Assembly (NCBI RefSeq): GCF_004363235.1
Contig: NZ_SNYW01000012.1
Location: 69,501-133,500, forward strand
Length of the DNA stretch: 64,000 nucleotides
Origin: Dongia mobilis
GTDB taxonomy: Bacteria; Pseudomonadota; Alphaproteobacteria; Dongiales; Dongiaceae
Direction of reading: 5' to 3'
The position numbers were made by a program, and so were the translations under genes. How positions within the stretch are numbered: the first letter of the stretch is position 1; each line of letters starts with the position of its first letter. Shown here piece after piece: positions 61,508-64,000 of the stretch. The notes beneath the pieces were generated by a model. It did not search any database. It was not told where the DNA came from and saw only the letters and a list, made by a program, of their open reading frames with translations.

Positions 61508-62065
61508 CTAGGGCCTGATTTCGATCGGCGCGCCGAGCTCGACCGCGTTCCAGACTACGTCCATGGCAAAGTTACTGAGGCCGATGCAGCCATTGGTGAG
61601 TGGCGAGCGGGTCAGGAAGCGCCACCATTGTCGCTGGCCGTGGATCATGATGCCGCCGCCGGCATCCTCGCCCTTGGCGGCCGCGGCTGCCGCCTGCTTC
61701 TTCGACGGGTAGGAAATCAGGATCGCGCGGTAGTGGGTCGAGTCCGGATTGCCCCAGATCAGGCGGTACTTGCCTTCCGGCGTGCGCTCGTCGCCCTCGC
61801 GCTGCTTCTGACCTTGGGGACTCTTACCCAGCGAAATGTCTGCGGTGAAAACCGCCGCGCCATCGCGCAGCAGGGTCAGCGAGCGTGCCGATTTGTCGAC
61901 CACCACCTTGTCGACCGGGCCGAGGGCCAGCGCCGTCACCGGCCCTGCCAGGGCGAAAACGGCGCCCGCAGCCAGCGCCGCGCAGAGCGACCAGGTCAGG
62001 GCGCGATGCAGAAACCGTCGCGGCCGCGCCGCCGGAAGCGCGAGTTCGAGGGCAAACTCAGTCAC
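61508..62065 (-). CDS. L,D-transpeptidase (YkuD family), membrane-anchored
   Basis: A 185-aa protein with a hydrophobic anchor at about 24-47 and a YkuD domain (about 52-183). The domain starts [20 protein letters not shown] and contains [14 protein letters not shown], the His in MIHGQ (142) and the nucleophile Cys160 in [10 protein letters not shown]. It cross-links or links peptidoglycan to proteins in the periplasm. The start is GTG at 62065, with an 8-bp overlap into the end of thyX, from which it may be translated by coupling. An upstream thyX promoter would serve both. Confidence 0.9.
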
Positions 62066-62990
62066 CGAGCATCGCCTGCAATTCGATCCATTCGCGCTTG
62101 CCGAGGCCGCTCGATTCCTGGGTCACCTTTTCGCCGGCAAGGCGTCGCTTGACGACCGCAAGTGCGTTCTTGGACAGCGTCGCCGCGCCCAGGCGGTGCT
62201 GCACGAAGGCCTCGTAGCACATCGGCACCCAGCGCTTCAGCACGTCCAGCATCGCCTCGGCATAGACGCGGATCTCGTACTGCGCATGCGCATCGGCACG
62301 GAGCGAGAGGAAATGCATGAAATTGTGGAGGTCGATCTTCCAGTACCATTGGGTATAGAAGTTGAGACTCAAATTCATGCGGGCCAGTTCGCGAGCGAGG
62401 CCGGGGCGAGTGGGGTCGACGGGCTCGCCGCTCTCGGTCTCGTTCAGCATGTCGACATAGTGGTCGTAGACCTGGGTCGAATCCGCTTTCAGCAGGTCGA
62501 GCACGCGCTTGGCCTCGGCCCCCTCCAGCACGTCGCCGCGTCCTTGGCGATTGACAGCGGACTGGGCCGCCAAGTGCTCCGGCGCCGGAATGTAGAACTC
62601 CCGGTCGAGGATCGAGTAGCGGGCCGAATATTCATTCACATTGGCGGTGCGGTGGCGGATCCATTGCCGCGCCACGAAGATCGGCATCTTGACGTGGAAC
62701 TTGATCTCGCACATCTCGAACGGGGTCGAGTGACGATGGCGCATGAGATAGTGGATGAGGCCCTGGTCTTCGGTCACCTTCTTGGTGCCGCGGCCATACG
62801 AGACGCGCGCCGCCTGCACGACCGCATTGTCATCGCCCATGTAGTCGATGACTCGGATGAGGCCGTGATCCAGCACTTCGATCGGCTGGTAGAGGATATC
62901 CTCCAGGGCCGGGGCGACGGAGCGCCGGGTCGGGCGCTGCTCCGCGCGCTGTTCCTCGATCTGGGCCAATTGCTCGCGGGAAAGAGCCAT
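62058..62990 (-). CDS. thyX: Flavin-dependent thymidylate synthase
   Basis: A 310-aa FAD enzyme that makes dTMP from dUMP using methylene-THF and NAD(P)H, in place of ThyA. The ThyX signature is [15 protein letters not shown] (about 153-167). Other typical blocks are [20 protein letters not shown] near the start, [20 protein letters not shown], and [20 protein letters not shown] in the second half. Start ATG 62990 (MALSREQ) is used; upstream in-frame codons run into the tmRNA promoter region. thyA is not in the window. It is divergent from ssrA and followed by the L,D-transpeptidase. Confidence 0.95.
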
Positions 62991-63124
62991 GCCGGGTCCT
63001 GCCTGTGTTCGGGAATACATGCCGCCAGCCGACTCGGGCAAGCGGGCCATGCCCGGTCGGGTGGCGGTTTTACCGGGAACCGGGGGACGCAACAAGATCG
63101 AAGCACCCATGCGGCGGCAGGCCT

Positions 63125-63152
63125 TTCACATCCTGCCCGGGGGGCCTATATT
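63125..63152 (+). promoter_or_regulatory. Promoter of the tmRNA gene
   Basis: TTCACA (63125-63130, five of six matches to TTGACA) and TATATT (63147-63152) are 16 bp apart. The predicted start, about 7 bases later, coincides with the first helix of the acceptor piece at 63159. Confidence 0.65.
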
Positions 63153-63158
63153 AAGCGT

Positions 63159-63485
63159 GTCGGGCAACCGACTATGGCGATAAACGCCGTGTGGAATAAG
63201 CGTTACGGACCCGGGGGCGGTACCCGGCGCCTCCACCATAAACCCTTTTGGTACAGTCGCTTACGGGCGCCTGTGCGGGGCTTCATGGGGGCGAAACAGG
63301 ATCGACGTGCGCGGTAAAGACGCGGTTTTTGCTCGGTATGGTACCCGCCGTTATCGGGCCAAACCTAGAGATGCCAACGACAACGTTGCATCCGATCTCC
63401 GTATGGCTGCCTAACATCCCTAACGGGCTGTAAGTAGCTGACGAGAACGCGGTACCGGGGGGCGCCGGGCAACAGAAAGCCCCCC
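63159..63485 (+). ncRNA. ssrA: Circularly permuted two-piece tmRNA (alpha-tmRNA)
   Basis: Rescues stalled ribosomes by acting as alanyl-tRNA and then as message for a degradation tag. The acceptor piece (about 63159-63238) comes first. It contains the T-stem CCGGG/CCCGG (63211-63215, 63223-63227) with loop GGCGGTA, then the acceptor strand CGCCTCC (63228-63234) and ACCA. A 48-base spacer (63239-63286) follows and is presumably cut out. The coding piece starts with GGGGGCG (63287-63293), which pairs with CGCCTCC to form the acceptor stem, and continues as GAAACAGGATCGACG, matching known tmRNA 5' halves. The tag frame lies at 63373-63414. A 7-bp hairpin GGGGGGC/GCCCCCC (63457-63485) closes the 3' region. 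Exact ends are approximate. Confidence 0.93.
63373..63414 (+). other. tmRNA tag reading frame (proteolysis tag)
   Basis: From the resume codon GCC the frame reads ANDNVASDLRMAA and stops at TAA (63412-63414). ANDN at the start and AA at the end are the conserved parts of ssrA tags. The last three residues are MAA, where LAA or VAA is more usual, and the middle VASDLR differs from the acidic middle seen in some alphaproteobacteria. The C-terminal AA should still be read by ClpX, and the ANDN part by SspB. Confidence 0.9.
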
Positions 63486-63570
63486 ACCCGTTTCCGGTGC
63501 CGGCGAAAGACCCGGCGGAGCCAAGAATAATCGGAATCGGGCCGGACCAGGCGGGAAACGGGGCGTTACG

Positions 63571-64000
63571 ATGGCGAAGGATTGGTTGCGCTATGACCAG
63601 ATGGTCGAGGATGCGTTGCGCGGGGTTGTACGGCGCGCGCTGACGGAGGCGGCCATGAGCGGGCTGCCGGGCGACCATCACTTCTACATTACCTTCCGCA
63701 CCGACAATCCGACCGTACGCATTCCGGGTCACCTGAAAGCACAATACCCACGCGAAATGACCATCGTCCTGCAGCACCAGTTCTGGGATCTGCATGTGGC
63801 CGACGAAAGCTTCGGCGTGACGCTGAGCTTCGGCGGCAAGCACGAGCCGCTGCATATTCCCTTTGCCGCTGTCGTCAGTTTCGCCGACCCATCGGTCAAA
63901 TTCGCCCTGCAGTTTGATGCCGGCGAAGCGGAGAATGACGACGAGATCCTGGATGGGGATGACGGAGAACCGGCGGAGCCGTCGCTTGCGCTGGAAAAAC
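63571..64000 (+). CDS. sspB: SspB-family ClpXP adaptor (runs off the right edge)
   Basis: The first 143 codons are visible. It starts MAKDWLRYDQMVEDALRGVV, then FYITFRTDNPTVRIPGHLKA and MTIVLQHQFWDLHVADESFG, ending the folded domain near AAVVSFADPSVKFALQF (about residue 115). After that comes an acidic, flexible linker rich in Asp/Glu (ENDDEILDGDDGEPAEP), as in SspB proteins whose far C-terminus docks on ClpX; that end is outside the window. SspB binds the ssrA tag and delivers tagged proteins to ClpXP. The gene starts 85 bp after the tmRNA hairpin on the same strand, giving direct genomic linkage between tag and adaptor. It is cut by the window edge, so its full length is unknown. Confidence 0.92.
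   Translation, partial: MAKDWLRYDQMVEDALRGVVRRALTEAAMSGLPGDHHFYITFRTDNPTVRIPGHLKAQYPREMTIVLQHQFWDLHVADESFGVTLSFGGKHEPLHIPFAAVVSFADPSVKFALQFDAGEAENDDEILDGDDGEPAEPSLALEK

Follow-up and report, generated by a model that had tools for sequence, protein, structure and literature searches.

A standard circularly permuted ssrA gene with the SspB adaptor gene directly downstream in Dongia mobilis

The locus at 63159-63485 of the window, the 64,000-nucleotide stretch of Dongia mobilis DNA analysed here, is a standard circularly permuted ssrA gene, the ordinary trans-translation gene of Dongia. It is of a kind already known, carried by nearly all alphaproteobacteria for the rescue of stalled ribosomes, and as a housekeeping gene it has little weight as a discovery. 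Gene, structure, tag and partner genes were established in this analysis. The locus is almost certainly the single ssrA gene of this Dongia genome and encodes a permuted two-piece alpha-tmRNA whose processing, charging, tagging and degradation would proceed as in Caulobacter.

The Rfam search proposed in the first-pass annotation returned a full-length covariance-model match to alpha_tmRNA (RF01849) at 63120-63486 on the + strand (260.1 bits, E 5.4e-76, model positions 1-355), which passed the gathering score of 50. The tmRNA_permuted family (RF04321) also matched, with 156 bits. Independently of Rfam, ARAGORN called a permuted tmRNA (tmRNA*) at 63146-63505 with the tag ANDNVASDLRMAA. The permuted tmRNA gene that the first-pass annotation had placed at 63159-63485 was thus borne out by all three, and ARAGORN agreed with its reading of the tag. 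Its coordinates were also good: base pairing in the acceptor piece begins at 63159, and the terminal stem closes at 63485. The parts of the gene and its neighbours are as follows.

62058-63110, - strand: thyX, the divergent upstream neighbour, outside the tmRNA (PF02511, 1.4e-56)
63125-63152, + strand: probable ssrA promoter, TTCACA-16-TATATT (agrees with the consensus at 10 of 12 positions; chance expectation 0.2)
63159-63238, + strand: acceptor piece, the 3' part of the tmRNA (RF01849 alignment and pair counts; ends predicted)
63159-63172, + strand: 5' hairpin of the acceptor piece
63211-63227, + strand: T-arm of the acceptor piece, loop GGCGGTA
63228-63234, + strand: acceptor strand CGCCTCC
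63235-63238, + strand: A and then CCA, encoded after the acceptor strand
63239-63286, + strand: intervening sequence, predicted to be cut out of the precursor (RF01849 loop between the acceptor strands)
63287-63486, + strand: coding piece, the 5' part of the tmRNA, starting with the acceptor strand GGGGGCG and ending with the terminal stem GGGGGGC/GCCCCCC
63374-63415, + strand: tag reading frame, ANDNVASDLRMAA (ARAGORN and codon reading)
63571-64000, running past the window end, + strand: sspB, proteolytic adaptor, 181 aa in the genome (PF04386, 1.2e-45)

The promoter region falls inside the RF01849 consensus, and the acceptor piece also holds strands of the long tRNA-like stem in the RF01849 alignment. 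The tag is read from the codons GCC AAC GAC AAC GTT GCA TCC GAT CTC CGT ATG GCT GCC TAA, and the base at -4 of the resume codon is A, as in 179 of 180 tmRNAs. Within the coding piece, 63411-63486 folded no better than shuffled sequences as a simple secondary structure, a model that leaves pseudoknots outside.

The two halves of the gene are joined by the pairing that the first-pass annotation had described across the break: CGCCTCC (63228-63234) pairs with GGGGGCG (63287-63293) in seven pairs, the third of which is G-U. This third pair is the alanine identity pair G3-U70 (G at 63289, T at 63232). Covariation was assessed by counting the model's 35 pairs in an alignment of 102 permuted tmRNAs in which each distinct tag was represented once. 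Since these sequences had been picked as tmRNAs by Rfam or ARAGORN, the shared structure was confirmed rather than discovered by the standard pairs found in 95.7% of cells, compared to 37-46% when partners were slid by 1-3 bases. Compensatory change, with both sides altered in at least two sequences, was seen at 23 of the 35 pairs, and acceptor pair 5, which joins the two halves, occurred as G-C, A-U, C-G and U-A, while G3-U70 was kept in 102/102. Together with the Rfam and ARAGORN calls, covariation across the break upheld the proposed circular permutation of the alpha type, with the acceptor half first. A decayed or duplicated, nonfunctional tmRNA copy is a reading to which we give next to no credence and in favour of which nothing was found: the match to RF01849 is full-length, the pairing is intact, the tag is conserved with only synonymous drift, and the gene is the sole copy in a genome that is 100% complete, a genome search for a second copy having found none.

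The T-loop had been correctly read as GGCGGTA in the first-pass annotation but had been called unusual, and counting excluded that description. GGCGGTA was the commonest alpha-tmRNA form (98 of 171 parsed T-arms), followed here by GGCAGTA (56/171), and the RF01849 consensus T-loop is GGCGGUA.

The tag had likewise been regarded as unusual, and comparisons at the level of genus, family and class ruled this out. The percentages describe only this sample of relatives, part of which was chosen by best RNA score and part by sspB. In addition, 22 of the 219 loci fetched gave no ARAGORN tmRNA (one being the smpB locus, and some having been retrieved through sspB); others among the 22, such as L026, have good Rfam scores, so a number of genuine tmRNAs are absent from the tag counts. 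Other clear permuted tmRNAs found by Rfam and missed by ARAGORN include L257. Of the seven Dongia tmRNAs, six specify ANDNVASDLRMAA itself, with only synonymous codon differences among them, and the seventh encodes ANDNVASDLRLAA, which ends in RLAA. The same tag, ANDNVASDLRMAA, was read from the sequence of L026, which belongs to another genus of Dongia's family, and was present in one genome of a second family (f43, that of G162), where the close variants ANDNSASDLRMAA, ANDNTAPALRMAA, ANDNVASDLRVAA and ANDN[ST]APALRMAA are frequent. Tags across the whole set (n=180) began with ANDN in 173 cases and ended in AA in 178. ANDNVASDLRMAA keeps the Ala resume codon, the ANDN start and the hydrophobic-Ala-Ala end, and it has an acidic Asp at position 8 in mid-tag, so the claim that it has no acidic middle was mistaken. 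Among 173 non-Dongia tmRNAs, Arg or Lys was found anywhere after ANDN in 69, and a basic residue with no acidic residue after ANDN in 37.

The first-pass annotation had further suggested that the tag could change recognition by ClpX or SspB. An altered degron of this kind, in which Arg at -4 and Met at -3 of ANDNVASDLRMAA would direct the product to another protease or let it evade SspB and ClpX, draws on the RMAA ending and on the rarity of MAA endings outside Dongia (4/173 in the class sample). We consider it very improbable, because a basic residue at -4 is common (R or K in 28/173 other tmRNAs, mostly as ..ARLAA), the same tag type recurs across many genomes of the second family, the hydrophobic-Ala-Ala end is retained, and sspB adjoins ssrA and is conserved in the genus. 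The suggested change in recognition found no support; the neighbouring, cognate sspB keeps its domain family and a conserved C-terminal motif. Also very improbable is the idea that the DLRMAA-type tag of Dongia and the second family might be a co-adapted SspB/ClpX variant, in which the basic residue at -4 would aid adaptor or pore binding.

The partner genes support the reading of the locus as an ordinary ssrA gene. The genome encodes one smpB (PF01668, 1.7e-56), clpX and a single sspB. When SspB was searched against named genomes, the closest named relatives were Dongia. The sspB gene is the next one on the same strand, about 85 bases 3' of the terminal stem, so that tag and adaptor sit together. 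A pattern search found no terminator 3' of the coding piece, and 63485-63560 folded no better than shuffled sequences; transcriptional read-through from ssrA into sspB is therefore possible. Same-strand adjacency of ssrA and sspB is widespread in the class: at 124 tmRNA loci fetched by RNA alone, with roughly 1.5 kb retrieved, sspB lay on the same strand at most 600 bases downstream in 99, further off in 2, and was found in none of the remaining 23. At 55 of the 124 loci, thyX was divergent upstream. A C-terminal motif like VVxLDAFRKK, which we take to be the ClpX-binding module after E. coli SspB, was kept in 164 of 185 distinct SspB tails. A literature search met no statement on ssrA-sspB adjacency, which does not count as evidence of its being unpublished. 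The locus is a clean alphaproteobacterial example of a tag-encoding RNA adjoining its adaptor gene, and with the two as neighbours the co-evolution of tag and adaptor is easy to study.

Alphaproteobacterial two-piece tmRNAs made from permuted genes are established, and are functional in Caulobacter (PMC3985003); SspB is known there as well (PMC8138137), and 11,946 permuted tmRNA sequences have been tallied (PMC11915505). The two-piece ssrA of Caulobacter crescentus (RF01849) shares with the Dongia gene the permuted order with the acceptor piece first, the GGCGGTA T-loop, the encoded ACCA, the ANDN start, the hydrophobic-Ala-Ala end and the promoter region. The one difference from RF01849 lies in the tag's variable central part (VASDLRM) and stays inside the normal range of the family. 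By this precedent the mature Dongia tmRNA would likewise consist of two pieces. The TTCACA/TATATT promoter would drive transcription of a precursor, which tRNA-processing enzymes would trim, and the intervening 63239-63286 would be expected to be removed, as in known two-piece tmRNAs, leaving the acceptor and coding pieces joined through base pairs. The RNA would then be charged with alanine via the G3-U70 pair and bound by SmpB, and would enter stalled ribosomes, where translation would resume at GCC and append (A)ANDNVASDLRMAA. The product so tagged would probably be recognised by SspB, encoded by the next gene, and by ClpXP, and degraded.

The beta- and cyanobacterial permuted tmRNAs (RF01850, RF01851) share the permuted form and the tRNA-like domain with Dongia, as reflected in the RF04321 match; neither family was listed here at its own cut-off, which is weak evidence because only the best of overlapping clan hits is kept. 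The tmRNAs of the second family have the same tag type and gene form as Dongia, with sspB downstream where checked (L198), although they belong to a separate family and their tags lie 0 to 3 positions apart from that of Dongia.

A strongly diverged permuted tmRNA was observed in five genomes of one genus of this second family (L253-L257, in G309, G331, G335, G326 and G317), with RF01849 scores of 79-86 bits and the frame ANDNHNAQDLRVAA. It had no match among phage or plasmid records, and a few open reading frames flanking two of the copies gave Pfam hits to metabolic or membrane proteins, not to phage proteins. A regular tmRNA with the tag ANDNRMALAA was also read in three of the five genomes.
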